From: a virus
Virus record (IMG/VR): IMGVR_UViG_3300047095_000811
Location: 1 to 64,000 of that record
Strand: one strand, 5' to 3'
Length of the DNA: 64,000 nt
The notes under the pieces: generated by a model
Seen by the model: the letters and a program-made list of their open reading frames with translations, nothing else
What the model was told of the DNA's origin: nothing
Databases searched by the model: none
Made by a program: the position numbers and the translations under genes
Part shown: positions 3,005 to 29,578 of the stretch, piece after piece
Layout of the letters: the number at the start of each line of letters is the position of its first letter
Position numbering within the stretch: the first letter of the stretch is position 1

Positions 3005-3012
3005 ACTCACTC

Positions 3013-8132: not shown

Positions 8133-9788
8133 TCAGTCCCAGCGGTCGATGCGGTAGATCTCGGTGCCGATCTCGGTAGTGACCCGGACGGTGATGTCGG
8201 GATCCTTGCCGTTCGAGGTGATCTTCACGCCGGAAGCCAGCTGCTCTTCCGGTGCCTGCTCCAGCGGGGTGCTGCGGGAGAAGGACTCGATTGTCGCACG
8301 GATCTCGTGGAACTCCTTGCGGAGCGTCTCCGGGAACAGAGCGACGGAGCCACCGTTTTCGTCCTTAGCGCCGCGCAGTACCAGAAGGGCTCCCTCCCCC
8401 TGATGCTTGAAGTTTTCGCCACTCCACATGTTCGGTTGCGGCAGGATGGCCTCCACCGGAACATAGAAGCCGGACGGCAGGTGCCAGCGGGATGCCGGGG
8501 AGCCGCCCACGTAGAGGTACCACGACGCCGGGTTGCGGGCCTCGTCCAGATCCCACTGAAGGATCGGAGGGGCGTCCTTGTCGGAGGCGGTCACGAGAGC
8601 GCAGTAGTTGTCGTTGTGCTTCTTGGTGAGAAGCTCGATGCTCTGGGCCTTCGGCAGCACGACACGGACGAACTTGTCCCATGTGATGTCCTTCTTCGGG
8701 ACGTTCATCTGGGGCGGGACTTCCTGACGCTGGTCCTTGGTCTTCAGGTGGCCGAAGACGGAGTCTCCCGACTGCGCCTTCTGCTTGGGCTGCGGGCGCT
8801 CCCAGATCGCGTGTTGACGGACTTCGGAGAGGGCTGCGAAGCGACGGCGGAGCGACTGGCGCACACCGAGCTTCTCGACGATCTCTTCTGCCCGCTTCAC
8901 GTTACCGGAAGAGGGAAGAGCCTGCGGGCGTTGGTAGACTTCGCCGCGCATCTTGTCGTCGAAGCGGCGCTTGACCTGATCGAACGACATCCCGGCTGCG
9001 ATGTCCTCCAGCAGGGTTCCGATCACGCCGGAGCGCGGGTGGCAGAAGCCAGCCGGTGCCAGTGCGATCTTCTTCCACAGCAGGTTGGCGGTGCGCTTGC
9101 CCTTCTTCGAAGCCTTGATCTTGTGCAGATCTGCCAGGAACTGAGCGCCGCCGATGATCTTCTCGGAGCGGTACAGCTCGTTGCCTTCGAGGAGCTGGAG
9201 GGCGACCTTGACGTGCTCCGCCTTGAACTCGCTCAGGGCGACCATCAGGTTCTTGTAGTCCTCCTTCTTCTCCGCCATCACCTGATAGGGAGTCTTCAGG
9301 CGGTCGCGATTGGCCGGGAGATAAGACGGGGTGACCTTGTAGTGCGTCCAAGCCGCACCGGAGCCCATCGTGTTGCTCCAGGTCTTCTCTTGGTAGGAGA
9401 AGACGCCGGTCACCTTGGCGTCCCGCACCGCCTCGCGGACGGCGGCGATCGGAGCCTCGTAGATGCCGCTGGCGGTGGTGGGCCACACAGCAGGTTCCGT
9501 GTCGCCAGAATCGTTCACGAAAACCAGATTGCCGTAGTTGCGGAAGTACTGCTTGCAACAGTTGCAGTTGTGGATCTGACGCTGGGCGGGATCCTCGAAG
9601 GCGTTCAGGTAGATCTGGAACAGCTCGTCGCCGGAGACGTCCGTCGTGAAGGCGACCGGAGTTGCGTTCTTGGCGCGGTACTCGTCGGTGCGGTTGTTGA
9701 AGTGGTTCTGGGCTTGAGCCACCAGAGAGTCGAATGCGCGGGCGTCGTGCTCGCTGTTGGAACCGTTTGCGTGCAGGGAAGTTTGCAT
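8133..9788 (-). CDS. Large conserved-looking protein of unknown function (551 aa)
   Basis: Starts at ATG 9788 after a CGAAAGGTAACACC site. A HNCNCCKQYFRNYGNLVFVN segment (about 73-92) is cysteine-rich and may bind metal. A helical middle with many Lys/Arg follows (about 200-330), then a Pro/Gln linker (RPQPKQKAQSGD). The C-terminal part is beta-rich (residues about 400-551: ILQWDLDEARNPASWYLYVG, ALLVLRGAKD). No membrane segments. Probably an intracellular protein of some abundance, since it stands as a monocistronic unit with its own terminator. I do not recognise the family. Confidence 0.8.
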   Translation of the reverse strand: MQTSLHANGSNSEHDARAFDSLVAQAQNHFNNRTDEYRAKNATPVAFTTDVSGDELFQIYLNAFEDPAQRQIHNCNCCKQYFRNYGNLVFVNDSGDTEPAVWPTTASGIYEAPIAAVREAVRDAKVTGVFSYQEKTWSNTMGSGAAWTHYKVTPSYLPANRDRLKTPYQVMAEKKEDYKNLMVALSEFKAEHVKVALQLLEGNELYRSEKIIGGAQFLADLHKIKASKKGKRTANLLWKKIALAPAGFCHPRSGVIGTLLEDIAAGMSFDQVKRRFDDKMRGEVYQRPQALPSSGNVKRAEEIVEKLGVRQSLRRRFAALSEVRQHAIWERPQPKQKAQSGDSVFGHLKTKDQRQEVPPQMNVPKKDITWDKFVRVVLPKAQSIELLTKKHNDNYCALVTASDKDAPPILQWDLDEARNPASWYLYVGGSPASRWHLPSGFYVPVEAILPQPNMWSGENFKHQGEGALLVLRGAKDENGGSVALFPETLRKEFHEIRATIESFSRSTPLEQAPEEQLASGVKITSNGKDPDITVRVTTEIGTEIYRIDRWD

Positions 9789-15026: not shown

Positions 15027-16700
15027 TTACAGCAGCTGCGCGGCGTCCTTCTTCAGGTTTTCACGGACCTGCCAGAGAGTCAGAAGGTTGTGGGGCTTGC
15101 CGTCCTCGAAAACGAGGCGCAGCTCGCCGCGATCCTCTTGCTCCCAAGACTGACGGTCGTGCAGGGTGTAGCCGAAGCCGTCCTTCTCGACACGCAGCAG
15201 ACCACGAGCGGACTTCTTGGTGCCAGAGTCGGTCTTGGGATCCTTGAAGATCTCACGGCCTTCCCCATTCACTTCCCCGTAGGTGGCCTTCATTGCGAAG
15301 CCGAGGGTGTCACGAGTGGCGTACTGGTAGGTGAAGGAGCCCACACCCAGCACCGTGTTGCACGATGCGAAGCCCTTCTCGTACAGACGCGTCATGATCT
15401 GATTGGCACGCTCCGGGGTGATGGAGTCGCCGTAGATCAGGCCCACTCGCTGGTTGAGAACCTTGAAGCCCTTTTCGGTCGTGGTACCGCCGAAGATGTC
15501 CCAGAGGCACTGTACTGCGCCGCGCTCGTCCGGGGTGGCTTCAACGTCGGTAACGTAGGAGAACTCCGGAGTGTCCACGCCACGGTCGATGATGCGGACG
15601 TAACCGCCGTTGTGGAAGACGGTGACTGCCTTGCCTTCCCACTTGGAGGTTTCCGGGCCGAACTGCTGCTCGAACACGCGGCATACTTCGGTGTGGTTCA
15701 GCGCCGCGATCGCACGGGCGGTGCCGCACAGGATCTCCACCGGGTCTCCGGAGTCCGGACGGAAGACGACCTTGGCGAAGCCCATCGAGTCCGGCTGGCG
15801 CGACAGGATCTTGTCCTTCAGGGCACTGGCGTAAGTCGTCACGACCTGCCAGAAGTCCCAGGTGTCACTGACGATGGACACGATCCCGGAAGGATACACG
15901 TCCTCGATCAAACGACGGAAGGTCTCGATCTCGTCTTCCTTGCCACCCATGCACATGACGCTGTGCTCGGTGGCCGGGACAGAACCACCAACGAAGGTAG
16001 TGCCACCAGCGTAGTAGCTCTCCAGCCAGTCAACAGCAGGGAGGCTGTCGGTGCCGAGGAACGAGACGAGGTGGCCTGCGCCGCTCTTCGCTGCATCATG
16101 GACGCCGGACATACCGCGCATCGAGAAGTCGTGAGCCTGCCAGTCAACGAACTCCATCGGAGCTCCGGTGCGATCTGCCCACAGTTCGAGGATCTGGCGG
16201 TACGCGAACGCGGTGGTCGCACTAGTCACGCCTTTCCACATCTCGGCGGAGATCCAGGTCTCCAAGAAGTTGGTGATCCAGTAGAACTCCGGTAGCGTGT
16301 TGACCACGGTCATGACCGGAATCTTCACGTTCACCAGCGAACCTTCAGGAAGAGCCTTCACCCGGATCGGCAGGTACCCGAGGTCGTGCAGCGCCTCGAC
16401 CTTGCTCATGTCGAAGCCAGACGGACCGACGAACGGGGCGATGCGATGGGCGAACTTCGCCAGAACCTTTTCCTTCGGCTGCTGGAAGAAGTTGGCGTCC
16501 CACAGGTCCTTCATTTCCTGCAGCAGGCCCTGCAGACCGAACCAGACGATGCGATCGTTCTGGAAGGCATCCGGGACTTTGGAGTGGATCACACTGCGCG
16601 GCGTGAAGTTGGAGTACACCAGAGTCGTACCAGCCGGGTACTGAGCCATGTGGCCAAGTTTGTAGGAGTCGCAGTTGTGCAGGGGATTCTGTTGAAACAT
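15027..16700 (-). CDS. nadV: Nicotinamide phosphoribosyltransferase (NAMPT/NadV)
   Basis: 557 residues, slightly longer than usual NAMPT. Makes nicotinamide mononucleotide from nicotinamide and PRPP. N-terminal NCDSYKLGHMAQYPAGTT (about 9-26) is the family signature. Further motifs: DFSMRGMSGVHDAAKSG, SVPATEHSVMCM carrying the phosphorylated catalytic His, SDTWDFWQVV and KVVFRPDSGDP, which bind the phosphoribosyl part. All look intact. It is followed by a 51-residue membrane protein and PRPP synthetase in the upstream direction, giving substrate supply in one operon. Likely restores NAD during infection; no NMN adenylyltransferase is visible in the window. Confidence 0.95.
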   Translation of the reverse strand: MFQQNPLHNCDSYKLGHMAQYPAGTTLVYSNFTPRSVIHSKVPDAFQNDRIVWFGLQGLLQEMKDLWDANFFQQPKEKVLAKFAHRIAPFVGPSGFDMSKVEALHDLGYLPIRVKALPEGSLVNVKIPVMTVVNTLPEFYWITNFLETWISAEMWKGVTSATTAFAYRQILELWADRTGAPMEFVDWQAHDFSMRGMSGVHDAAKSGAGHLVSFLGTDSLPAVDWLESYYAGGTTFVGGSVPATEHSVMCMGGKEDEIETFRRLIEDVYPSGIVSIVSDTWDFWQVVTTYASALKDKILSRQPDSMGFAKVVFRPDSGDPVEILCGTARAIAALNHTEVCRVFEQQFGPETSKWEGKAVTVFHNGGYVRIIDRGVDTPEFSYVTDVEATPDERGAVQCLWDIFGGTTTEKGFKVLNQRVGLIYGDSITPERANQIMTRLYEKGFASCNTVLGVGSFTYQYATRDTLGFAMKATYGEVNGEGREIFKDPKTDSGTKKSARGLLRVEKDGFGYTLHDRQSWEQEDRGELRLVFEDGKPHNLLTLWQVRENLKKDAAQLL

Positions 16701-16746
16701 GGTTTGTTACCTTTCTAAGTTGCTAACCGCCAATGGATTTTTGTTA

Positions 16747-16902
16747 TTACGCCAGCGCGGCGTATACGAGACCTGCAATGACCAAGTGGACGATGATCAC
16801 GGCGTACACCTTCATCGAACCACCGAATGCGTTCACGATCGGCTTCGTCAGGAAGACGAAGGAGAGAATGAACACCAACACCGAAATTGCGATTGCTTTC
16901 AT
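16747..16902 (-). CDS. Tiny two-span membrane protein (51 aa)
   Basis: ATG 16902 after AAGTAAGGAAGCAAG. Two hydrophobic segments (IAISVLVFILSFVFLT and VYAVIIVHLVIAGLVYAALA) are joined by a short loop with NAFGGSMK. It lies between nadV and the PRPP synthetase gene with short gaps, so co-expressed. It could be an unrelated micro-protein or a membrane component linked to precursor uptake; neither can be shown. Confidence 0.75.
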   Translation of the reverse strand: MKAIAISVLVFILSFVFLTKPIVNAFGGSMKVYAVIIVHLVIAGLVYAALA

Positions 16903-16911
16903 CTTGCTTCC

Positions 16912-17805
16912 TTACTTGAGGATGACCCGGTTGTTCAGGTCCTGGAACTGTTGCTTCAGGCTGTCGTTCATCACGTTGGGGCACATGATGCCGTCGTAGA
17001 AGCCTTCGAACACGTTGATGCCCTTGCTGAAGATGCCGTGGGTCACGTACAGCAGGAGCTTGTTGTCCCAATCCGCCTTGATGACGGTCGCGAGATCGAT
17101 GAACGTGCGGCCTCCGTCGCAGATGTCATCGATGACGAGCAGGATCGAATCCTTCTGGATCACAGAAGGATTCACCAGACGAGTACCGTTGATCTGACCC
17201 GTCACGGTGTCCCGGCTCTTCTCTGCATAGAGGATCGGCAGCCCCCCGAGAGCCTTAGAGCACTTCGAGATCTTCTTCGTGGCTCCGGCGTCCGGCGGCA
17301 CCAGAACGACTCGCTTCATGTCGTCTTCGAGAATCATCCCGCTAACGATGTCCGCAAGGATCTCGTGTTGCTCCGCCACCTGAAGTACACCGGCAGGGAA
17401 CAGTGCGCGGCTTACGTCCGAGTGGGGGTCCATGACGGTCACTCGGTTGAAATTGCACAGACCGATGATCTGGGACAGGACCTGCAGAGAGTGCGCCTCG
17501 CCGGGGTTGGCGACGCGGTCTTGACGAGCGTAGGGCAGGTACGGGATGGAGCACAGGTATTCCATGCCGTCGTTCCCGTACACGTTGCGCAGGGCGTTCA
17601 CGACCAGCAGCATGTCGATGAGGTCGTTCGAGCCACGGAAGTCCACGGTGATGCGGACGGAGTCACGTCCTGCTACGACGATGGCGAAGTCCTCTTCGAT
17701 CACGCCTTCGGCATTTGCCAGCTGGACATGGCGCTCACCTCCGGGGAAGGTGATGATCTTCGGCTCGACGCCGGGGAAAGAGTCGCGGGTTTGAATCCGA
17801 ATCAT
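16912..17805 (-). CDS. prs: Ribose-phosphate pyrophosphokinase (PRPP synthetase)
   Basis: 297 residues, close to the usual length of about 310. Transfers pyrophosphate from ATP to ribose-5-phosphate. Motifs: DFRGSNDLIDMLLVVNALR (about 69-87), SIPYLPYARQDRV with the catalytic-loop Arg, VTVMDPHSDVSRALFP, PPDAGATKKI, and the PRPP-binding loop LLVIDDICDGGRTF. Start ATG 17805 after GAAAGGAAGATGCAAC; the longer frame to 17850 reads into the promoter motif. Provides PRPP for the adjacent NAMPT and for nucleotide synthesis. Confidence 0.93.
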   Translation of the reverse strand: MIRIQTRDSFPGVEPKIITFPGGERHVQLANAEGVIEEDFAIVVAGRDSVRITVDFRGSNDLIDMLLVVNALRNVYGNDGMEYLCSIPYLPYARQDRVANPGEAHSLQVLSQIIGLCNFNRVTVMDPHSDVSRALFPAGVLQVAEQHEILADIVSGMILEDDMKRVVLVPPDAGATKKISKCSKALGGLPILYAEKSRDTVTGQINGTRLVNPSVIQKDSILLVIDDICDGGRTFIDLATVIKADWDNKLLLYVTHGIFSKGINVFEGFYDGIMCPNVMNDSLKQQFQDLNNRVILK

Positions 17806-20266: not shown

Positions 20267-21238
20267 TCATTTCCTTCCGTGAGGCTTTCCCTCAGAAATA
20301 AGAACTTCCGGGGATTTCTTGATCCATCCCGGAACCTTGACCATTCTCTTCTCCTCCCAATCTTCCTCGGTGAATCCGAGCATCTTGAGGTCGGACTTCC
20401 GCTTCGGCGTCAGCTCGTTCTCGGTCATGCAGGTTATGTTGAAGCCCGAGAGAGTCGTGAAGAGAGACGATGCCGCCGACACGCTCTCGACGAGAGCAGG
20501 TCTGCCGTAGCCGAAGAAATACACCATAGGCATCCCTTCGACCTTGAAAGCTTCGACCATAGTATTGGTCTCCTCGTGTACCGCGTAGGCATACTCTCTC
20601 TGCTTACCCCAGTACTTCGGGCCGCAAGTGAGGAATTCTGCAAGCGCAGCTTCCTTCTCGCTATAACGAGTGAAGTACTCCGTTGGGAGAACCCGCTCGA
20701 CGAAGCGATCCACAAAGTGATCCATTACGATCATGCTTCTGGTCATCAAATGAACGTATCTCGACACCCCGTACGCCGCGAAGCTCTCAAGGTGCAGGTG
20801 GACGTTCTTCCCAAAGATTGCCTTCAGCTCGCTGAACCTGTTGACGTCGGCAACGAACAGCAAGTGGCCATGCAAGTAGATGCTGCTCCCGGTGAGGTCG
20901 GCGAGGTAGCCCGGAAGACGCGCCCGGATGGCCCTGAAATAAAGACGCGAGTTCCCCTCTAGACCATCCTTCAGATGGACTTTGCTCATAGCAACGCGAG
21001 CGGCCTTCTCACTGTGCGGGTTGTTGGGATGGCAAGTCTTGTAGATGTTGTCGAAGATGTTCTCGCTCGGGTCGTACTTGATCTCAGTATCAAGCTCCGA
21101 ACGAAGACCAGCCGATCGCAGGATGTGGACCAATCGATCTCCCGTGGAGCTGGAGAGCTCTTCTGAGTACCGCTCCCACATCTCGGCGTACTTGGGATTC
21201 TCTTTCTCGAATAACGTTCTTGGCAGTATATCGCCCAT
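20267..21238 (-). CDS. Hypothetical protein (323 aa)
   Basis: ATG 21238 after GCGAGGAGAAATC. Largely helical and soluble, with HLHLESFAAYGVSRYVHLMT and MIVMDHFVDRFVERVLP in the centre and a basic C-terminus (VPGWIKKSPEVLI). No family recognised. First gene of the leftward operon that ends at 17884; the terminator of the tRNA-Glu unit overlaps its leader. Confidence 0.75.
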   Translation of the reverse strand: MGDILPRTLFEKENPKYAEMWERYSEELSSSTGDRLVHILRSAGLRSELDTEIKYDPSENIFDNIYKTCHPNNPHSEKAARVAMSKVHLKDGLEGNSRLYFRAIRARLPGYLADLTGSSIYLHGHLLFVADVNRFSELKAIFGKNVHLHLESFAAYGVSRYVHLMTRSMIVMDHFVDRFVERVLPTEYFTRYSEKEAALAEFLTCGPKYWGKQREYAYAVHEETNTMVEAFKVEGMPMVYFFGYGRPALVESVSAASSLFTTLSGFNITCMTENELTPKRKSDLKMLGFTEEDWEEKRMVKVPGWIKKSPEVLISEGKPHGRK

Positions 21239-21250
21239 GATTTCTCCTCG

Positions 21251-21285
21251 CAAAAAAGAGACCCCTTAGCGGGTGCTAAGGGGTC
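21251..21285 (-). terminator. Intrinsic terminator after tRNA-Glu
   Basis: Stem GACCCCTTAGC/GCTAAGGGGTC (21260-21270 with 21275-21285) is followed on the minus strand by TCTTTTTTGC. A run of ten C (minus strand, 21290-21299) precedes it. Confidence 0.9.
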
Positions 21286-21313
21286 CACAGGGGGGGGGGT
21301 GCAACGAAAACAA

Positions 21314-21388
21314 TGGTACAGCCACAGGGAGTCGAACCCTGCTTCTCAGGTTGAAAACCTGATGTCCTAACCGATAGACGATGGCTGC
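21314..21388 (-). tRNA. tRNA-Glu (UUC)
   Basis: Full cloverleaf with encoded CCA. Acceptor GCAGCCA pairs with TGGCTGT (one G-U), anticodon stem TCAGG/CCTGA with loop TTTTCAA, anticodon TTC, T-loop TTCGACT. Confidence 0.95.
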
Positions 21389-21389
21389 A

Positions 21390-21404
21390 CATAAAAATGA
21401 TATC
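21390..21404 (-). promoter_or_regulatory. Weak promoter motif before tRNA-Glu (GATATCATTTTTATG)
   Basis: Partial match to the 15-base motif starting two bases upstream of the tRNA 5' end. Weak, but located between the HNH gene and the tRNA. Confidence 0.35.
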
Positions 21405-21444
21405 TGCGCAAATGCGCTGCAAAAACGATGAGAATAAACGTTGG

Positions 21445-21963
21445 TTAAAGTAAACCTAGCTTTTTATTAGTGAGAGCCTTTCCACCAAATACTTTTTCGC
21501 ATTCGATGTCATAGATTAAAGCAAGCTCTCGCGGGTCATCTCCCGCAGCTATGGTTCTTCCTTGAAAACGAGCCCGGAATTTAGCGCGACCTTTGCGTCG
21601 ATCACCGTTTACTTCGACTCCCTTATATCCGGATCCTCCGATTTTTGAGTTCGGGTTTTCGTTAAGATGAGTCTTTCTCGTTGCTGAACTATTACACTTG
21701 TGATGACTAAATGCAACGTTGCCGAGATCGAAGAAAAGTTCTTTAGCATTTGGCTCGTGCAGCCAAGGTTTCATATGCTCTACCGACAGATTGTCGGCAT
21801 CTTCAATTTCGGTCTTACACCTGTAACAGGTAGTCAATTCGAGAGCCTGCGCCATTTGAAACACAAGAAGCTTGTTCAGCTTATTTCTTGCAGTTCCGTA
21901 TGGCATTCCAAGCTGTATAGCTCGTTCTTGCATCGCTCTACGTTCATCTTTACATCCACTCAT
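21445..21963 (-). CDS. HNH endonuclease with C-terminal AP2-like DNA-binding domain
   Basis: 172 residues; start at ATG 21963. Residues about 45-95 are an HNH domain: CYRCKTEIEDADNLSVEHMK supplies a CxxC pair and the catalytic His, and NVAFSHHKCNSSA the second His and Cys. Residues about 110-150 (GSGYKGVEVNGDRRKGRAKF, RARFQGRTIAAG) match an AP2 strand pattern. HNH-AP2 proteins are free-standing homing endonucleases. It sits between tRNA-Glu and tRNA-Ser, a typical landing site, and next to a tRNA fragment. Its DNA looks more AT-rich than its neighbours, which fits recent arrival. Confidence 0.9.
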   Translation of the reverse strand: MSGCKDERRAMQERAIQLGMPYGTARNKLNKLLVFQMAQALELTTCYRCKTEIEDADNLSVEHMKPWLHEPNAKELFFDLGNVAFSHHKCNSSATRKTHLNENPNSKIGGSGYKGVEVNGDRRKGRAKFRARFQGRTIAAGDDPRELALIYDIECEKVFGGKALTNKKLGLL

Positions 21964-21999
21964 TTTTGAACCCTCGTTCGTATGAGAAAAAAAAAACAT

Positions 22000-22089
22000 T
22001 GGCGGAAGTTACAGGATTTGAACCTGTGAAGGAGATTAATCCTTGCTCGCTTTCCAAGCGAGTGCCTTAAGCCGCTCAGCCAAACTTCC
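22000..22089 (-). tRNA. tRNA-Ser (GGA)
   Basis: Class II tRNA with long variable arm and encoded CCA. Acceptor GGAAGTT/AACTTCC, anticodon stem CTCGC/GCGAG with loop TTGGAAA, T-loop TTCAAAT. Confidence 0.95.
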
Positions 22090-22090
22090 A

Positions 22091-22131
22091 TTGAGAACTG
22101 CCTTAAACCAACTCAGCCATCTCACTTCAAT
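22091..22131 (-). pseudogene. Truncated 5' half of a second tRNA-Ser
   Basis: Reading leftward, GTGAGATGGCTGAGTTGG followed by TTTAAGGCA matches the acceptor and D-arm of a bacterial tRNA-Ser, then stops near the anticodon stem. It abuts the intact tRNA-Ser. No 3' half was found. Confidence 0.55.
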
Positions 22132-22217
22132 CGGGTGAGAACAGCGTCTTTACGCTTGCAACGGCCAGTCGCCGAAGGTTTGCAACCTCATGGGTAGACG
22201 CCATTCTCTGAACTAAT

Positions 22218-22310
22218 TGGTGGGTGTCCACGGAGTCGAACCGCGAATGTTTACCACGAGGGACCAGATTTACAGTCTGGTGATGCACACGCCATAGCAT
22301 CAAGACACCC
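22218..22310 (-). tRNA. tRNA-Tyr (GUA)
   Basis: Class II tRNA with encoded CCA. Acceptor GGGTGTC/GACACCC, D-stem GATGC/GCATC, anticodon stem CCAGA/TCTGG with loop CTGTAAA, long variable arm, T-loop TTCGACT. Confidence 0.95.
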
Positions 22311-22312
22311 AT

Positions 22313-22388
22313 TGGTGGAGGTAGTCAGGATCGAACTGACGACATCCAGCTTGCAAAGCTGGCGCTCTCCCATCTGAGCTATACCCCC
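22313..22388 (-). tRNA. tRNA-Ala (UGC)
   Basis: Acceptor GGGGGTA/TACCTCC (one G-U), anticodon stem CCAGC/GCTGG with loop TTTGCAA, T-loop TTCGATC, encoded CCA. Two bases from tRNA-Tyr. Confidence 0.95.
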
Positions 22389-22406
22389 ATCAAACTACTT
22401 TAAACT

Positions 22407-22482
22407 TGGCTCCCCAGCCTCGGCTCGAACGAGGGACCTAGCGATTAACAGTCGCTTGCTCTACCAACTGAGCTACTGAGGA
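22407..22482 (-). tRNA. tRNA-Asn (GUU)
   Basis: Acceptor TCCTCAG/CTGGGGA (one U-G), anticodon stem AGCGA/TCGCT with loop CTGTTAA, T-loop TTCGAGC, encoded CCA. Confidence 0.95.
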
Positions 22483-22484
22483 AT

Positions 22485-23000
22485 TTGGGAGGCATTACCT
22501 CCTCGACGGAAGATTTTTCAATCCCCGGAAATGGTGGCAGGGGCCGAAGCCCCGCCGAAGGGCGGATTCTCCCGGCATGGCCTTATCAGGGCGCATGCGG
22601 GGGGAGCAAGGAGCGACCTCGGGTAACGAACTTGTGGTCCGACGTCATCGCTCAATCCTATTTGCATCGTGTTAAAGAGCAAAAGCCCACCTCATAAGAT
22701 AGACGCCACCCCTATCCGACCGAAGTTCCCGAAAGAGCGGATAGATTCGGTCGTGCCTCGCGCTTATGTCTTGGCCAAAGGTGTTCGCATCGAAGTCCGC
22801 GAGTCTTCGCCCCACCGGCTGAGACCAGTATAGAGAGGAGAGTCGCGACAAGACTCATGGACGGCGGAGCGCGTCGGAGGAAAGGATTCTCAGGTCCAAT
22901 CCTCACGAGGGCTGCGGCAACGTGCAAGAGCTACAGGTAGCGCCTAACTTATGAGGCGGGCTAGACTGATGTTAGGAGACCGATGCGGCAGAAGGAGGCC
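22485..23000 (-). ncRNA. Large structured non-coding RNA upstream of the tRNA cluster
   Basis: About 500 bases with no credible gene, between a terminator (23001-23042) and tRNA-Asn. 22684-22711 pairs with 22935-22962 into a helix of about 28 positions closing a 280-base domain. On the minus strand 22 of the first 23 positions pair, including two G-U, and the helix runs on with more G-U pairs; on the plus strand those become A-C mismatches. So selection appears to act on minus-strand RNA, the strand of the tRNAs. Other elements: overlapping CTATCCG/CGGATAG and CGACCGAA/TTCGGTCG (22712-22753), GGGGC-TTCG-GCCCC near 22540, GAGTC/GACTC near 22840, and a GGAGG/CCTCC hairpin at 22488-22503. The ends are approximate. 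GOLLD and ROOL RNAs occupy such positions in phages, but I cannot match either by eye. Confidence 0.75.
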
Positions 23001-23042
23001 AAAAAAATAAACTTCCAGATGGCTTTGCGGGCCATCTGGAAA
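23001..23042 (-). terminator. Intrinsic terminator after the 23048-23329 gene
   Basis: An 11-bp perfect stem TTCCAGATGGC/GCCATCTGGAA (23013-23023 with 23031-23041) is followed on the minus strand by GTTTATTTTTTT. Confidence 0.92.
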
Positions 23043-23047
23043 CTGCA

Positions 23048-23329
23048 TCACACTTCTCGGTAAACTTCCTTGAAGGTATTTTGATACGAGCGTAGACACT
23101 CGATCGGAGAAAGAAGGAAAAGCATGGTCTTCTCTACTGCCTCTCCGAATTTGGAATGGATGTCGCATTCCTGCTCGAAGTTCTTGAAAAACACTTCGGC
23201 ACTTTCCACAGGCAGATTAACGACTCGACGAACCGAGTCTGCCAGACGGTTGACGCGGATCTGATGCGTCATGGGGAAGGCTTGGCGGAGAAATTCCGTG
23301 TTCGCCTTCCTGATTGCTTCGACTGCCAT
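23048..23329 (-). CDS. Hypothetical protein (93 aa)
   Basis: ATG 23329 after ACGAAGGAGCATCAA. Helical and basic (IRKANTEFLRQAF; IRVNRLADSVRRVV), with a hydrophobic LFLLSPIECL near the C-terminus too short for a clear membrane span. Last gene of the unit that starts at 23801. Function unknown. Confidence 0.7.
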   Translation of the reverse strand: MAVEAIRKANTEFLRQAFPMTHQIRVNRLADSVRRVVNLPVESAEVFFKNFEQECDIHSKFGEAVEKTMLFLLSPIECLRSYQNTFKEVYREV

Positions 23330-23353
23330 TTGATGCTCCTTCGTATTGAGAAA

Positions 23354-23575
23354 CTAGGCTACGTCGCCGCCTCCTTCGGAGGGGCGTTCGATTCCCACAG
23401 CGTCGTAGAACCCCTGCGGGTTGCTGCGGAAGAACTCGACGTCGGACTGAACCAGAGGCTCGCTGGCGTCGATGATGTGCGTGTCGGTCTTACCGACGAA
23501 GCGGGTGTAACGGAGGTTGTCCTTCGCCTTGATGTCCACCAGAACGAGGGCGGGTTTCTTGTGCTTTTTGTTCAC
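23354..23575 (-). CDS. Small hypothetical protein (73 aa)
   Basis: ATG 23575 after AAAGAAAGGAAGATGCA. Basic N-terminus and a strand (KKPALVLVDIKAKDNLRYTR). C-terminus Gly-rich (PSEGGGDVA). No family recognised. Confidence 0.7.
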   Translation of the reverse strand: MNKKHKKPALVLVDIKAKDNLRYTRFVGKTDTHIIDASEPLVQSDVEFFRSNPQGFYDAVGIERPSEGGGDVA

Positions 23576-23594
23576 TGCATCTTCCTTTCTTTGC

Positions 23595-23801
23595 TTACGT
23601 CGTCATCGCGCTGGAGACTCCTGAGAATCCCCACTGCGATGACGAGTAAAAAACCTCCGTCCTGCGGCTGTCACGACTCATCTTCCTTACGGAACGAACG
23701 TGGACCTGATGACCCTTTTGGACGAGGAACTGGTTGGCCTCGAAGTTACGGGGCTTGGCGTTCACCTTGACAGTGATGGTTTGCTTTTTCTTCTTGCTCA
23801 T
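23595..23801 (-). CDS. Small basic hypothetical protein (68 aa)
   Basis: Start at ATG 23801 after GGAGATTCAA; a longer frame to 23861 crosses the terminator of the GGDEF-EAL gene and is rejected. Begins MSKKKKQTITVKVNAKPRNF and ends with an aromatic Ser-rich tail. Function unknown. Confidence 0.65.
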   Translation of the reverse strand: MSKKKKQTITVKVNAKPRNFEANQFLVQKGHQVHVRSVRKMSRDSRRTEVFYSSSQWGFSGVSSAMTT

Positions 23802-23810
23802 TTGAATCTC

Positions 23811-23840
23811 CAAAAAGTAGCGGAGGCATTCCGCCTCCGC
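23811..23840 (-). terminator. Intrinsic terminator after the GGDEF-EAL gene
   Basis: A perfect stem GCGGAGG/CCTCCGC within 23820-23840 is followed on the minus strand by TACTTTTTGG. Confidence 0.88.
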
Positions 23841-23844
23841 AATT

Positions 23845-25311
23845 TCATGCAAGAACTGCAATCAGCTCTTGCTCGCTCATCGGCTTGTAGAAATAGAATC
23901 CTTGGCAAACGGTGCATCCCTTTTCACGGAGATACGATACTTGCTGTTGATCTTCTACTCCTTCTGCGATTAGATCCTTGCCAAGGCTCTCGCCCATAGC
24001 TATGATCGTGTTAAGTAGTATCGTATCTTTGGAGCCGATGGAAGATACGAACGCTCGATCAATCTTGATCGTGTCGATCGGGAACTTCTGAAGGTATGAC
24101 AGCGAAGAGTACCCCGTCCCGAAATCGTCGAGCGCAAGCTTGACACCCATCCCGCTGAGCGTCTTGAGCTTTTGCTCGACCTCTTCGGTGTAGTGGATGA
24201 GCACTCCCTCGGTGAACTCAAGCTCGATCAGCGACGGGTCCACATTGTAGGTGGTGGTCACGTCGTGTATGAGTTTCACCAAGTCGTTGTCTCGTCGCTT
24301 GAGATGCGCCGCCGAGACGTTGACGCTGATCGGAACGTGCAAGTCATTCGCTCGGATGATTCTTGCTGCCGTCCTGATTAGCTGCTCCGTCAGATGTACG
24401 ATCTCTCCGCTTTCCTCCAGCACCGGGATAAACTGCGACGGAGGAATCTGCCCCTTCTGTGGATGGTACCATCTTGAAAGGACTTCGACACCAACGATGG
24501 CGTTGGTCTCAGAGTCCACCTGCGGCTGGAACACAGGAAAGAGGTTACCATTCCTTAGTGATTCTCTGAAGGTGTTCTGGATGTCGGAGATTTGGTTCAC
24601 CTTGTCCTGCAGGGGAGAGTCGAAGTACGAGTAAGTATTCTTACCGCTCTCTTTCGAGTCGTACATCGCCATGTCTGCTTTCTTCAGGAGGTCAGTTACG
24701 TTGTCGCCGTCGTCCGGATAGCTGCTTATTCCAATGCTGCAGGAGAGCGTGATCTCGACGCCGTCGATGAATATCGGTTGGTTGATCTTCTTCAGGATTC
24801 GGTTGGCAATCTCCGAGATAGATTTCCTGTTTGAGACCTTCTTGATGATGACGACAAACTCGTCTCCGCCTATGCGGTATATGTCGGTACCGTCTCGTAC
24901 GCTTCCGATCAGGGCTTCGGCCATTTTTGTCAGCACTTTGTCGCCGAATCCGTGCCCGTAAGTGTCGTTGTAAATCTTGAACCTGTCGAGGTCTATGTAC
25001 ATGACCGAGAACTCACAGCACCCTCTTCCAGAGAGACTTTCCATTGCGTTCATGAACATGAGTCGGTTCGGCAGGCCGGTTAGGATGTCGTAGTGCGCCA
25101 TCTTGAAGAAATTCTCTTTCTTCTGGCGGATCTCCTTCAGAAGTTTGAAGTTCCAGGCAGTGACCAAGCCGAATGCGACTGATATCGGGATGAAATACAT
25201 GAAGAAACTGCTTGGGTCTTTTGTATTTTGAGAGCTGACGAGGTAGAGCAGAAGAAAGATCGGCATGTACAAAGATCCACCGAACGCCAGCCTGTTCGAG
25301 ACAGAATGCAC
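23845..25311 (-). CDS. Membrane GGDEF-EAL protein (c-di-GMP synthesis and breakdown)
   Basis: 488 residues. GTG start at 25311, 7 bases after AGGGG. Two membrane helices (about 12-26 and 38-55), then GGDEF (about 75-230): DILTGLPNR, YIDLDRFKIYNDTYGHGFGD and an intact RIGGDEFVVI. The inhibitory RxxD site reads RDGT, so product inhibition may be lost. The EAL domain (about 245-485) has FQPQVDS, EVLSRW in place of EALLRW, ISVNVSA, LEFTEG, DDFGTGYSS, IKID, AEGVED and QGFYFYKP, so metal ligands and catalytic residues look present. The protein could make or degrade cyclic di-GMP and thus alter motility, biofilm or envelope state. Monocistronic with its own terminator. Confidence 0.93.
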   Translation of the reverse strand: MHSVSNRLAFGGSLYMPIFLLLYLVSSQNTKDPSSFFMYFIPISVAFGLVTAWNFKLLKEIRQKKENFFKMAHYDILTGLPNRLMFMNAMESLSGRGCCEFSVMYIDLDRFKIYNDTYGHGFGDKVLTKMAEALIGSVRDGTDIYRIGGDEFVVIIKKVSNRKSISEIANRILKKINQPIFIDGVEITLSCSIGISSYPDDGDNVTDLLKKADMAMYDSKESGKNTYSYFDSPLQDKVNQISDIQNTFRESLRNGNLFPVFQPQVDSETNAIVGVEVLSRWYHPQKGQIPPSQFIPVLEESGEIVHLTEQLIRTAARIIRANDLHVPISVNVSAAHLKRRDNDLVKLIHDVTTTYNVDPSLIELEFTEGVLIHYTEEVEQKLKTLSGMGVKLALDDFGTGYSSLSYLQKFPIDTIKIDRAFVSSIGSKDTILLNTIIAMGESLGKDLIAEGVEDQQQVSYLREKGCTVCQGFYFYKPMSEQELIAVLA

Positions 25312-25350
25312 TTGATACCCCTAGTTGTTGACTATCTATATGTACTGCGT

Positions 25351-25393
25351 TCAATAAAATAGACGGTAAGATGCTGCTTTGCACCTTACCGTC
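25351..25393 (-). terminator. Intrinsic terminator after nrdJb
   Basis: Stem GACGGTAAG/CTTACCGTC (25362-25370 with 25385-25393) is followed on the minus strand by TATTTTATTG. Confidence 0.85.
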
Positions 25394-25408
25394 CGTTAGA
25401 TTACTCCA

Positions 25409-26077
25409 TCAACCGCATTTCGAATCGCCACAAGAGAGACACGTCATGCAGTTATCCATCGGGATCATTGCCTTGACGCTGCACTTGGGGCAGACGATGG
25501 CGTTACGGGGGTAGCCCGTGTGGCTGTCGTCCTTGTCGCCGGTCTTGGCAACGTACTCTTGCTTCTTGCCCGCCAGATACTCCTTGGTGAACTCGTCGTG
25601 CTCCGGGTTCTCGATCAGGCCCAGAGACATGAAGTGCTTGCGGATGGCGAACAGGGAGATCTCGGCGACGAGCGACGGGATCTGACGACCGCCCTTGGCG
25701 ATGTAGCCGGTCGAGCCGGGGGTGATGATGCACTCCAGCTCTTCCAGAATGAAGGACAGGTCGCCGCCGCGACGGAAGCAGGCGGAGATCATGCGGGTCA
25801 GCGCGGTGATCCACTCGTAGTGGGTGCTGTCCTTCGAGTAGACGAAGATCTCGAACGGCTGGCGAGCGCCATCTTCGTTCACGATGTCGTTGATCGTGAC
25901 GTACATGGCGCTCTTGGCCAGCGGAGACTTCAGCTTGTAGGTGGTTCCCTGCAGCATGTCAGGACGCTTCACTTCTTTGATGGTCGGCTTGACTTGCTCG
26001 ACCTTGGGATTCTCGAACTTGGTGTCCACCACCTTGAAGCCGGTGATGCGAGAGCTGATTTCGACAGGCTGTGTCAT
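25409..26077 (-). CDS. nrdJb: Class II ribonucleotide reductase, C-terminal subunit (NrdJb)
   Basis: 222 residues. Start at ATG 26077, overlapping the upstream stop; a longer frame is rejected. Residues about 48-150 match the C-terminal NrdJ domain (YVTINDIVNEDGARQPFEIF; RMISACFRRGGDLSFILEEL; GGRQIPSLVAEISLF). The end has two CxxC pairs (CPKCS, CLSCGDSKCG), a zinc ribbon plus the redox cysteines that re-reduce the active site. In pseudomonads the class II enzyme is likewise split into NrdJa and NrdJb. Works with the 708-residue subunit, whose gene is separated here by two small genes. Confidence 0.9.
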   Translation of the reverse strand: MTQPVEISSRITGFKVVDTKFENPKVEQVKPTIKEVKRPDMLQGTTYKLKSPLAKSAMYVTINDIVNEDGARQPFEIFVYSKDSTHYEWITALTRMISACFRRGGDLSFILEELECIITPGSTGYIAKGGRQIPSLVAEISLFAIRKHFMSLGLIENPEHDEFTKEYLAGKKQEYVAKTGDKDDSHTGYPRNAIVCPKCSVKAMIPMDNCMTCLSCGDSKCG

Positions 26078-26454
26078 GCAGTTTCCTTTTGATTGATCTT
26101 GTAGTCGCGGAAGGGGGATACCTTCTCGGCGTCCGGAGCAGAGTCGTAAGCTTTTTTGAGGCGCATGGTCTCCATGACCCACGTCCCGAAGAGTTCTTCG
26201 ACCTCCCACTCGACTCCCTTGTACTCCACCTTCTGGTGGGCGTAGATGAGGAAGCGGTCGTACTTTGTGTAGATGCAGATCTTGTACCCGTTGCGGGAAC
26301 CGATCAGCTTTGGCTGGAAGGTGTGTTCCTCCGTCCGGATCATCTCCATGCTGGTGATGTCAGAGTCGATCCGGCGGAGGGACTGGACGAAGCCTTTCGG
26401 CCCCGCCGCTTTACCGATTCCTCTGACCGATTGGTCAGAACTTGCCATAATCAT
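26074..26454 (-). CDS. Hypothetical protein between the nrdJ subunits (126 aa)
   Basis: Start at ATG 26454, which overlaps the stop of the HNH gene (ATGA); a TTG at 26475 is an unlikely alternative. Its own stop overlaps the nrdJb start. Beta-rich centre (YKICIYTKYDRFLIYAHQKV; VEWEVEELFGTWVMETMRL). No family recognised. Tight coupling on both sides suggests it was in the operon before, or moved with, the HNH insertion. Confidence 0.75.
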   Translation of the reverse strand: MIMASSDQSVRGIGKAAGPKGFVQSLRRIDSDITSMEMIRTEEHTFQPKLIGSRNGYKICIYTKYDRFLIYAHQKVEYKGVEWEVEELFGTWVMETMRLKKAYDSAPDAEKVSPFRDYKINQKETA

Positions 26455-26957
26455 TTTCCATTCTTGATTCTCCAAACGGTTTTCTGATTCACGCCGTATT
26501 CATCAGCGATCACGCGTTGAGTGCGTTTATCTTTCTTGATCGCCTCAGTTTCCTCGTCGGTCAGCTTTCGACCATGATGAACGTATCCGTTGGCGAATTT
26601 GTCCTTCATGTTTTGACTCTGAGTACCCCATTCAAGATTATCAAGACGGAAGTCCATCGGATCATCATTGAGATGGCGAGCAACATGCTCATCCGATGGC
26701 TTTTTCCCCTTGAAGAGCTCAAGAAGCAGAAGATGTATCTTGAACTTCTGCTTCTTGCCATCTTTTTGAATTGTGACGGTCGGATACTTGGTACTATCGC
26801 CAGACAGATGAGGCACGATAACACGTTCTTTCAGATTCCGAGTCTTCACCGAGCTGGTGGTGCTGTACACGGTTCTTTCAAGACTTTTGACAGTTCCGAG
26901 ATTCGAGATTTGATAGAACCCTTCGTACCCCGGAATGTCTTTCCATGCCTCTTTCAT
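26451..26957 (-). CDS. NUMOD4/HNH homing endonuclease
   Basis: 168 residues. Residues about 4-22 are a NUMOD4 motif (WKDIPGYEGFYQISNLGTVK). Residues about 75-120 hold the HNH core: IHLLLLELFKG, VARHLNDDPMDFRLDNLEWG and QSQNMKD. The C-terminus (IADEYGVNQKTVWRIKNGK) is a helix-turn-helix for target recognition. It lies 1 base after nrdJa, within the split nrdJ operon; nrd genes are classic targets for phage homing nucleases. Confidence 0.93.
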   Translation of the reverse strand: MKEAWKDIPGYEGFYQISNLGTVKSLERTVYSTTSSVKTRNLKERVIVPHLSGDSTKYPTVTIQKDGKKQKFKIHLLLLELFKGKKPSDEHVARHLNDDPMDFRLDNLEWGTQSQNMKDKFANGYVHHGRKLTDEETEAIKKDKRTQRVIADEYGVNQKTVWRIKNGK

Positions 26958-26958
26958 G

Positions 26959-29085
26959 TCAGAACTTTCCGTAATAGCCTTCCTTCAAAGCGTCGAACAG
27001 ATTGGCGGCGGAAGATTCGTGACCGTCGTAGATCACGGTGTCGCTGCCACGGACGCGGATGGTCTGGCCGTCTTCGGTCGTGAACTCATACTGGGTTGCA
27101 TCGAGGTCTTCCTTCTTAACCAGAACGCCTTGGAAAGCTTCAGGATTAAAACGGAAGGTTGTCGCACCTTTGAGGCCGCTGTCGTAGGCGGAGATGTAGA
27201 TGTCTTGGAACTTCTCGAACGGGTAGTCGGTCGGTACGTTGATCGTCTTGCTGATCGAAGAGTCAATCCACTTCTGAGCCGCCGCTTGGACCTTGACGTG
27301 ATCGAACGGATCGATGTCGTCGGCAGCACCCCACTCGGGACGCAGCTTCAGTTCAGCGATCAGCTTGTCATCGTCGATCGGACCTTTGACGATCTTGCCG
27401 CCAGTCAGTGCGCCGGACGCGTACAGCTGGCGGTACAGCATGTACTCGAAGGAGTACACCGGCTTCTGAACTTTCGTCGCCTTGCCGACTTCGATCACGT
27501 TGCGGAGATAGAAGTGAGAGAACGAAGGTTCGATGCCGTTGGACGCGTTGTTGCCGAACGACAGAGCCAGAGTCCCGGTCGGAGCGATGGAGGTCCCATG
27601 AGTGAAGCGGGAGCCGTGTTCGAGCATCTGAAGGATGATCGCACGAGCTTCTTCGTCATCGTGCCAAGCTTGGAAGTAGCCGGACATGACGTAGAGCTGC
27701 TTCGCAGAAATCGTCTGGCCGATCTGAATGTCACCGTTGACGATGTGCTCGCGCAGGTTCGGGTTCTTGTTGGCCAGCTCCTGAGTGACGGTGAACGACT
27801 CACTGAAGATCGGGGCGGCACCGCGAGTCTTCGCCATTGCCACGCCAGTCTTGAAGTTGTTCAGGGCCAGGGAGCGAGTGATCTTCTCAGTGAAAGTCAC
27901 GGACTCATCGGAGCCGTAACGGATGCCCATCATGATCAGGGCGGAGCCGAGGCCGAGGTAGCCCATACCGTGACGACGCTTGCGAAGGATCTCGTCGCGC
28001 TGTTCCGGCAGAGGCAGACCGTTGATCTCGACCACGTTGTCCAGCATGCGGGCGAAGAGCTGAACGTTCTTGGCGAACTCGTCGAAGTCGAAGTATGCTT
28101 CTTCGGTGAACGGGTTGCGCACGTAGCGGGTCAGGTTCACGGATCCGAGCAGGCAGGAACCGTTCGGAGGAAGAGGTTGCTCGCCGCAGGGGTTCGTGGC
28201 GCGGATGTTCTCGCAGAACCACAGGTTGTTGCGACGGTTGACTTCGTCGATCAGGATGAAGCCGGGTTCGGCGAAGTCGTAGGTGGACTTCATGATGATG
28301 CCCCACAGTTCACGGGCAGGCATCTTGCGGTCTTCGAACGGCTTGCCATTCCACATGAACACCCACTCGCGATCGTTCTTGACCGCTTCCATGAATTCGT
28401 CGGTGATCAGGATGGAGATGTTGAAGTGGCGCAGACGACCGTCTTCACGCTTGGCCTTGATGACGTCGATAACGTCGGGGTGGCTCACGTCGAAGGTCAG
28501 CATCTGTGCGCCGCGACGGCCACCGGCAGACGAGACCGTGAAACAAGCCTTGTCGTAGGTGTCGGCGAAAGCCAGAGGGCCGTTGGTGGAAGCGCCAGCG
28601 CCGTTCACGAAAGCGCCTTTCGGACGCAGCGTGGAGAACTCGTAGCCGATGCCGCAGCCGAACTTCAGGGTGATCGCAGCCTTGTACAGCGATTGGAAGA
28701 TGCCGTCCATCGAATCCTCGATGGTCTGGCTCACGGTGCAGTTGATCGTCGAGGTCTTGGGCTTGTGCTCGCCAGCACCTGCGTTCGACATGATCCGACC
28801 GGCAGGCCAGCAGCCGCCGATCTTCATCGCGTTGTAGTATTCGGTAGCGATGCGACCGATCCAACCTTCGCGGTCTTCGGTGTATTCGCCGTGTTGGATG
28901 CCGGTCTCGTACTCGACCGCTGCCAGTTCCTTGGCGACCCGCCAGAAGCTGGCGTCGAGGTCTTGGTCGATGGGTTCATGCGTCTTGCCGTCCTTCAGGC
29001 AATACTTACTCTGCCAGATCTCTTGCGAGGTTTCCTGCAGAGGCAGGACGTTGTTCAACGTTTCTTGTTGTACTTGCTGTGTCAT
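26959..29085 (-). CDS. nrdJa: Class II (B12-dependent) ribonucleotide reductase, catalytic subunit (NrdJa)
   Basis: 708 residues. Reduces ribonucleotides with an adenosylcobalamin radical. Motifs: GGCWPAGRIMSNAGAG (about 91-106), TINCTVSQTIEDSMDGIF with the first redox Cys, FGCGIGYEFSTLRPKGA, SSAGGRRGAQMLTFDVSHPD, ATNPCGEQPLPPNGSCLLGS with the catalytic N-C-E triad, and HGTSIAPTGTLALSFGNNAS near 525. Its C-terminal cysteines are in NrdJb. Start ATG 29085; tRNA-Arg and a hairpin (29107-29130) lie just upstream. No cobalamin riboswitch fits in that gap. Confidence 0.95.
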   Translation of the reverse strand: MTQQVQQETLNNVLPLQETSQEIWQSKYCLKDGKTHEPIDQDLDASFWRVAKELAAVEYETGIQHGEYTEDREGWIGRIATEYYNAMKIGGCWPAGRIMSNAGAGEHKPKTSTINCTVSQTIEDSMDGIFQSLYKAAITLKFGCGIGYEFSTLRPKGAFVNGAGASTNGPLAFADTYDKACFTVSSAGGRRGAQMLTFDVSHPDVIDVIKAKREDGRLRHFNISILITDEFMEAVKNDREWVFMWNGKPFEDRKMPARELWGIIMKSTYDFAEPGFILIDEVNRRNNLWFCENIRATNPCGEQPLPPNGSCLLGSVNLTRYVRNPFTEEAYFDFDEFAKNVQLFARMLDNVVEINGLPLPEQRDEILRKRRHGMGYLGLGSALIMMGIRYGSDESVTFTEKITRSLALNNFKTGVAMAKTRGAAPIFSESFTVTQELANKNPNLREHIVNGDIQIGQTISAKQLYVMSGYFQAWHDDEEARAIILQMLEHGSRFTHGTSIAPTGTLALSFGNNASNGIEPSFSHFYLRNVIEVGKATKVQKPVYSFEYMLYRQLYASGALTGGKIVKGPIDDDKLIAELKLRPEWGAADDIDPFDHVKVQAAAQKWIDSSISKTINVPTDYPFEKFQDIYISAYDSGLKGATTFRFNPEAFQGVLVKKEDLDATQYEFTTEDGQTIRVRGSDTVIYDGHESSAANLFDALKEGYYGKF

Positions 29086-29106
29086 TAACGAACTCCGGTT
29101 GATGAT

Positions 29107-29130
29107 GCTCGATGAGGGGTCTCATCGAGC
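29107..29130 (-). other. 10-bp hairpin between tRNA-Arg and nrdJa
   Basis: Perfect stem GCTCGATGAG/CTCATCGAGC with a 4-base loop and no T-tract. Possibly an RNA processing or stabilising element 3' of the tRNA. Confidence 0.6.
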
Positions 29131-29145
29131 TACGAACGATTTAAA

Positions 29146-29222
29146 TGGCACCGCCAGAGGGATTCGAACCCCCGACAACCTGCTTAGAAGGCAGGTGCTC
29201 TATCCGACTGAGCTATGGCGGC
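29146..29222 (-). tRNA. tRNA-Arg (UCU)
   Basis: Acceptor GCCGCCA/TGGCGGT, anticodon stem CCTGC/GCAGG with loop CTTCTAA, T-loop TTCGAAT, encoded CCA. Confidence 0.95.
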
Positions 29223-29230
29223 ACTGGAGG

Positions 29231-29578
29231 CTACTCTCCTGTTATCCCATACAAATCATGCACAAATTTGTACACGTCCAAAGTACATCCGGGGCGCATC
29301 ATCACCTTGACGGAGGATGCAGATGCATTGCTGGAGGAGGTCACGTCGAGCCAATTAGTCCCGATGCCATCTTGGATCGTCTTGACTGCTTCTGCGACCA
29401 TCTGGACTTCCTCGGAGTCAATAGACCCACCGTTAGCCAAGACGATTCGATCCACGTTCTCGGAGATGCTCTGGAAGACATCGACTTCGGTCGATTCCAC
29501 CATAATCCGGAACGTCTTGCTGAAGTTATTGAGCCTGCTGATGCAGAACGTTAGCTCTATCACGCTCTTTTCACTCAT
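29231..29578 (-). CDS. Hypothetical protein (115 aa)
   Basis: ATG 29578 after AGAAAAGGAAAAGC. Soluble alpha/beta (VIELTFCISRLNNFSKTFRI; VQMVAEAVKTIQDGIGTNWL). No family recognised. Sits 9 bases upstream of tRNA-Arg on the same strand and is driven by the motif at 29661-29675, so mRNA, tRNA and nrdJ may share a transcript. Confidence 0.7.
   Translation of the reverse strand: MSEKSVIELTFCISRLNNFSKTFRIMVESTEVDVFQSISENVDRIVLANGGSIDSEEVQMVAEAVKTIQDGIGTNWLDVTSSSNASASSVKVMMRPGCTLDVYKFVHDLYGITGE

Follow-up and report, generated by a model that had tools for sequence, protein, structure and literature searches.

Cyclic di-GMP (c-di-GMP) is the signal by which bacteria choose between swimming and sticking. 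In membrane-anchored GGDEF-EAL regulators a sensor domain is usual but optional, and the RxxD product-inhibition site (I-site), which normally halts the cyclase, is likewise common but optional in GGDEF domains. Hybrids with good motifs may still have one activity only, or be c-di-GMP receptors. The closest structures to the protein described here are those of MorA and PA0575 from Pseudomonas aeruginosa. Both are sensor-equipped host proteins, MorA being a large regulator whose sensor domains are N-terminal. MorA (4rnh) shares both domains and their order, with the catalytic residues aligned and about 36% identity in the structure match, whereas the phage protein has a short predicted membrane anchor only. 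The hybrid PA0575 (5m3c), with GTP bound to its GGDEF domain, was the second-best match.

Phage-carried c-di-GMP genes are already known. A viral diguanylate cyclase (DGC) is reported for Bacillus phage SP-15 (PMC5977210), and another for a Mu-like phage from the Cariaco Basin, with a discussion of its benefits (PMC7785012). N4 infection of E. coli reportedly needs the cyclase DgcJ, while the phosphodiesterase PdeL protects against N4 (PMC8669472). In phage JBD44 the proteins Eht1 and Eht2 are reported to increase the signal of a c-di-GMP reporter and to help replication (PMC11898732). A jumbo-phage survey contains HD-GYP and other phosphodiesterases as predicted counter-signal enzymes; the words GGDEF and EAL occur in that main text once each, both in the reference list (PMC7824862). 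In the open-licence literature, no publication describing such a tandem GGDEF-EAL enzyme from a lytic jumbo phage was found. The products of two phage c-di-GMP genes, gp350 of Bacillus phage G and a protein of SP-15, are single-domain matches (243 and 190 columns, respectively) to the protein described here. The compact tandem form is unusual.

The gene under study lies in a window of 64,000 nucleotides, the left part of an IMG/VR record of 136,853 bp (IMGVR_UViG_3300047095_000811). The reading that we favour, with a probability of about 0.55, is that a jumbo phage acquired a bacterial GGDEF-EAL gene as cargo, and that its product would be a minimal membrane enzyme resetting host c-di-GMP.

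The GGDEF-EAL gene and its product

The features of the gene are as follows.

23845..25311, minus strand: GGDEF-EAL protein gene, open reading frame of 488 aa, GTG start, no internal stops
25318..25322, minus strand: Shine-Dalgarno-like AGGGG, 6 nt ahead of the GTG
25234..25290, minus strand: predicted membrane helix 1, residues 8-26 (hydropathy)
25156..25212, minus strand: predicted membrane helix 2, residues 34-52 (hydropathy and model)
24637..25098, minus strand: GGDEF domain, residues 72-225 (Pfam)
24886..24897, minus strand: I-site position (residues 139-142), reading R-D-G-T without the final D (sequence and relatives)
24856..24870, minus strand: GGDEF motif, residues 148-152, within RIGGDEF (sequence and alignment)
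23881..24576, minus strand: EAL domain, residues 246-477 (Pfam)
24484..24486, minus strand: E276 of the EAL motif, which reads EVL (sequence and alignment)
24112..24129, minus strand: DDFGTG loop 6, residues 395-400 (sequence and alignment)

Both domains were matched over their full length. The GGDEF family (PF00990) scored 154 bits against a cut-off of 23.8 (E = 3.7e-45, residues 72-225) and the EAL family (PF00563) 214 bits against 31.3 (E = 2.8e-63, residues 246-477), which rules out a chance motif match. The protein was aligned with 17 bacterial relatives of 35-42% identity (18 rows). The invariant columns include D107, N115, D116, G148-F152 and K220 in the GGDEF domain and E276, N331, E365, D395, D396, K416, E450 and Q470 in the EAL domain, which we take, by PleD/WspR and RocR, to be catalytic and metal-binding residues. 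The phage protein keeps 62 of the 65 columns that are invariant across the other 17 sequences, and the three changes (A to S, A to L and C to A) each fall outside this presumed catalytic set. The initial annotation had described an apparently intact GGDEF site and a full EAL set (E-V-L, N, E, the DDFGTG of loop 6, K, E and Q). The former is borne out by RIGGDEF, the Pfam score and the invariant columns, the latter by Pfam and the alignment. Its reading of the inhibitory site as RDGT instead of RxxD also holds; RxxD is present in 64 of the 80 best bacterial relatives, with another sequence in 15 and one without a match.

Two hydrophobic segments of 19 residues, starting at residues 8 and 34, gave mean Kyte-Doolittle values of 1.80 and 1.66. 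They are separated by a loop of a few residues and both precede the GGDEF-EAL core. An AlphaFold model of the 488-aa protein reached a mean pLDDT of 85.1 and a pTM of 0.62. Confidence was low over the N-terminus (pLDDT below 50 for residues 1-14, and 53-69 in blocks over residues 11-50), and the modelled helix ran unbroken from residue 33 to 73, linking the second hydrophobic segment to the GGDEF domain. For the proposed membrane GGDEF-EAL enzyme, the class, the two intact sites and the loss of the inhibitory site agree with the sequence, the alignment and the confident model of both catalytic domains; the anchor, with the inner-membrane position that it would confer, is a hydropathy prediction.

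The protein lacks, as judged from its sequence, the sensor region usual in its relatives, and its N-terminal residues form two predicted helices. There are 57 residues ahead of the core, compared with a median of 406 in the 80 best bacterial relatives; fewer than 100 were found in two of these 80, one of which (L007) starts 14 bases from a contig end. A Foldseek search of the PDB gave, best first, the tandem proteins MorA (4rnh, E = 1.8e-45) and PA0575 (5m3c, E = 5.5e-44), followed by DosP and PA0861, and EAL-only entries matched with TM-scores near 0.9 to the target. The result for MorA was in agreement with phmmer (4rnh, E = 1.4e-87).

Carrier phage, locus and origin

The record is classed as linear and end repeats are absent, so it is probably a fragment. 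It carries multisubunit RNA polymerases (phrog_2986, phrog_2943, phrog_14872 and phrog_3015), a split DNA polymerase, a terminase, a portal, a tail sheath and a major capsid protein. The polymerase beta' protein (44146-45711) is 42.6% identical to that of Yersinia phage phiR1-37 and 31-34% identical to those of Bacillus, Listeria and Staphylococcus jumbo phages. By these genes the carrier is a jumbo phage of the phiKZ/phiR1-37 type, and, as the contig also carries genes for virion structure and replication, the description of the enzyme as phage-encoded was confirmed. One relative in IMG/VR is a 45-kb contig (83% for polymerase beta', 88% for capsid), another is 263 kb long (66% and 76%), and two further contigs were recognised by capsid (53% and 50%). 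The same phage was found in a second metagenome as a 78-kb contig, 99.98-99.995% identical over the 31,971 bases compared and 100% identical over an 882-base piece. That contig ends before the GGDEF-EAL locus, which is known from one assembly.

Other genes of the contig were also inspected. An adenylosuccinate-synthetase-like gene (1817-3010, minus strand) has a Pfam match and belongs to phrog_1211, which is named for the 2-aminoadenine-DNA enzyme. It may be PurA-like instead, since it keeps the GDEGKG aspartate, which is presumably absent from PurZ proteins. A nicotinamide phosphoribosyltransferase gene adjoins a PRPP-synthetase-like gene (15027-17805, minus strand), and the two are likely an NAD-rebuilding pair. 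A 551-aa protein (8133-9788, minus strand) was considered as a nuclear-shell candidate and dropped as a widespread phage protein: tblastn matched it in 498 phage records, and it is annotated as hypothetical in the 15 listed. Two unnamed large proteins of the contig had no PDB match.

On the minus strand the locus begins with a ribonucleotide reductase (26959-29085), a NUMOD4-HNH endonuclease (26451-26957), a short open reading frame and a TSCPD reductase tail (25409-26209). The tail is followed by a 14-pair hairpin, the GGDEF-EAL gene, a 9-pair hairpin and small open reading frames, then by five tRNAs and an HNH gene.

25361..25394, minus strand: terminator-like hairpin upstream of the GGDEF-EAL gene, 14 pairs
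23820..23840, minus strand: terminator-like hairpin downstream of the GGDEF-EAL gene, 9 pairs

The gene is a unit of its own between these two hairpins. Thirteen terminator-like hairpins were counted in 10 kb compared with 11.0 (sd 3.4) in shuffled sequences; because the count is so close to the shuffles, only the two long stems are persuasive as terminators. No convincing sigma-70-like promoter was detected on the correct strand upstream of the gene, nor an exact copy of the ATATAT-type motif enriched in this phage. Of 80 upstream regions across the contig, 17 contain that motif (2.1 expected) and 10 contain a GAAAGGAA ribosome site; these are the probable promoter and start signals of the phage. 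The AGGGG ahead of the GGDEF-EAL gene differs from the usual GAAAGGAA.

The reductase itself (25409-29085, minus strand) is split. Its first reading frame corresponds to positions 203-785 of phrog_84 and its second to positions 791-973, with the NUMOD4-HNH gene and a 133-aa reading frame between them. It looks split by a homing endonuclease, since Rfam gave no intron: in a scan of the contig only tRNAs passed the gathering score, with neither an intron nor a c-di-GMP riboswitch. At laxer limits, the region 21000-29500 yielded only tRNAs and one sub-threshold match overlying a tRNA. No PilZ domain was found in the contig either. Without PilZ or a catalogued c-di-GMP riboswitch, any effect of c-di-GMP would be exerted via host receptors or unknown phage ones, a host receptor being the presumed target.

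Codon usage points to an outside origin of the gene. When each gene of at least 150 codons (n = 88) was scored against all others of the contig, the GGDEF-EAL gene was the second least phage-like (0.035, mean 0.258, sd 0.094, z = -2.4), and its GC3 was 0.684 compared with a median of 0.797. This atypical usage points to a probable acquisition from a bacterium. By score, the nearest bacterial loci were mostly from Burkholderiales and other Pseudomonadota. The phylogeny that the initial annotation had proposed as a check of origin gave no donor. In a tree of 110 rows (quick LG+G4) the phage protein stood on a long branch (0.98) without a strongly supported neighbour, no starred set included it, and its best grouping, with five viral-contig rows, had a support of 81.

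It could be argued that bacterial DNA was joined onto the phage contig during assembly, as a single assembly covers the locus and the codon usage differs. This is highly improbable, however, because only the GGDEF-EAL gene is unusual. Within 4 kb on one side are HNH genes and a ribonucleotide reductase of phage type; the other side has five tRNAs, an HNH gene and genes of phage families. The same phage was also assembled from a second metagenome, the locus being outside the bases compared.

The gene was then looked for in the same lineage. The EAL family was absent from five related contigs (G001, G002, G032, G033 and G034), all but G002 being fragments of 30-78 kb, and G000 and the control genomes were positive. 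A query with the GGDEF-EAL protein, run without a positive control, gave no hit at E ≤ 10 in either G001 or G002. Gene order is common with G002, the 263-kb relative, from 29734 to about 70 kb, in a comparison that covered 88,413 of its 263,413 bases. The same order at the GGDEF-EAL locus was ruled out: the neighbouring reductase of G002 differs in kind (24% identity), and there is no EAL gene. As G002 has another reductase and other genes to the left of the shared block, the gene lies in a variable region.

These observations would also fit a recent passenger, that is, a host gene without benefit that is heading for decay, or a non-catalytic c-di-GMP receptor. Its codon usage is still foreign, EAL is missing in all five of the tested same-lineage contigs (mostly fragments), and the many HNH endonucleases and tRNAs make the region changeable. 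On the other hand, the frame is full-length and the catalytic columns are kept on the long branch (0.98), although that branch length may date from the donor. A decayed copy, which the initial annotation had named as a refuting outcome, was not seen: the 62 invariant columns persist although the terminal branch measures about one change per site. A passenger role is rather unlikely, and acquisition as working cargo is preferred.

Occurrence among viruses

A tblastn search of 50,697 phage records returned 189 with a match, and in 34 of them one place covered at least 80% of the protein, always below 60% identity. The 40 matches listed included contigs with host-style annotation, Salmonella drafts, short unannotated faecal contigs and fragments; judged by name and length, no complete isolate genome was among these 40. 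Close viral relatives were found neither by peptide patterns nor by a 34-base exact pattern, and no viral relative above about 40% identity was found. In BFVD eight structures matched at E ≤ 0.001, with alignments of 152 to 243 columns, so none of them spans both domains. The family phrog_11823 covers residues 59-486 (E = 6e-132). Since it matches both domains, tandem GGDEF-EAL proteins of phages or prophages are already on record. The profiles of phrog_11823 and phrog_22021, both unnamed families, have 693 and 782 positions. The claim that such proteins are rare in phages is upheld for the tandem protein in isolates but not in its general form, as single-domain GGDEF genes, present in isolates such as Bacillus phage G, and other viral GGDEF-EAL genes exist.

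A profile scan of IMG/VR yielded 138 relatives, and the best 80 of them were retained. For 13 of the 80 the locus had at least 8.4 kb of contig on each side of the gene, and among those 13 loci L110 was the only compact tandem with a predicted membrane helix, intact motifs and no RxxD. None of 29 viral contigs with GGDEF-EAL or EAL genes, picked from the best 80 loci mainly for length, carried the phiKZ-type polymerase family. The L110 protein has 471 aa, both domains on one chain, as in the phage protein, and a single predicted membrane helix. It differs in sequence (36% identity) and in tree position, and the phiKZ-type RNA polymerase family tested is missing from its contig. That contig (G007, 543,035 bases) has DNA polymerase and RNA ligase families near the gene and a terminase elsewhere.

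The L110 contig has two GGDEF genes, one of them the compact membrane GGDEF-EAL. Two other viral contigs, those of L148 (G024, 224,467 bases) and L132 (G018, 249,797 bases), have four and three GGDEF matches, respectively; the phrog_2 terminase had no match in either, so each may be of phage or of bacterial nature.

A broader scheme may be drawn from the two compact cases, which lie apart in the tree and both lack RxxD. Large lytic phages would repeatedly have taken GGDEF-EAL genes from bacteria and lost the sensor and the feedback site. What is left would be a fixed membrane clamp that consumes GTP by way of c-di-GMP to give pGpG, and the phage would thereby dictate the c-di-GMP level of the infected cell. 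If true, receptors would be closed to rival phages or c-di-GMP alarms erased. This generalisation is speculative and unlikely.

Expected effect on host c-di-GMP

According to the favoured reading, a single cargo enzyme resetting host c-di-GMP, the two predicted helices would anchor the protein at the inner membrane, and the continuous helix into the GGDEF domain could support dimers. No sensor part appears to be left. The GGDEF domain probably binds GTP and makes c-di-GMP without the I-site brake, while the EAL domain probably cuts c-di-GMP to pGpG. Both steps could take place on one chain, with their relative rates setting the net effect, and host c-di-GMP would be reset in infection independently of host regulation. 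We infer the activity, its direction and its benefit to the phage. Net hydrolysis is weakly favoured over net synthesis.

The opposite direction deserves attention. As a net diguanylate cyclase the protein would raise c-di-GMP and promote matrix and surface attachment, with phage spread in aggregates or a reshaped metabolism. Its RIGGDEF is canonical and its I-site is lost; the reported viral c-di-GMP genes are DGCs (PMC7785012, PMC5977210), and Eht1/Eht2 of JBD44 reportedly raise the reporter signal and aid replication (PMC11898732). A complete EAL domain with all expected catalytic residues would nevertheless be superfluous in a pure cyclase, and net synthesis is regarded as possible, though on the unlikely side.

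A role in counter-defence can also be considered, in which the EAL domain removes the c-di-GMP alarm of CBASS-type cyclases with STING effectors. Bacterial STING is reported to sense c-di-GMP from the CD-NTase of the same operon (PMC8748872), and other jumbo-phage phosphodiesterases are predicted to act against nucleotide signals (PMC7824862). The nicotinamide phosphoribosyltransferase and PRPP-synthetase-like gene, if linked to such a function, could rebuild NAD. However, with its intact and uninhibited GGDEF domain the protein would also make the alarm molecule, and removing that molecule needs no membrane anchor. Because the GGDEF domain is intact, this role is disfavoured and very unlikely.

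For the preferred resetting of host c-di-GMP, any of the targets suggested in the initial annotation (host motility, adhesion or envelope, or a defence signal that depends on c-di-GMP) may apply. Possible benefits, by analogy, are receptor shut-off, as suggested by the roles of DgcJ and PdeL in N4 infection, metabolic resetting, as with Eht1 and Eht2, and removal of c-di-GMP in STING-type defences. As a guess, a fall in c-di-GMP could alter pili, adhesins or glycan receptors and, for example, block the adsorption of competing phages.

If the enzyme is active, a jumbo phage would directly set a central bacterial signal rather than disturb it indirectly. A constitutive, sensor-free tandem enzyme would then offer a simple system for studying the balance of the opposed GGDEF and EAL activities. 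It would also allow a test of whether control of receptors and superinfection by phages runs through c-di-GMP.
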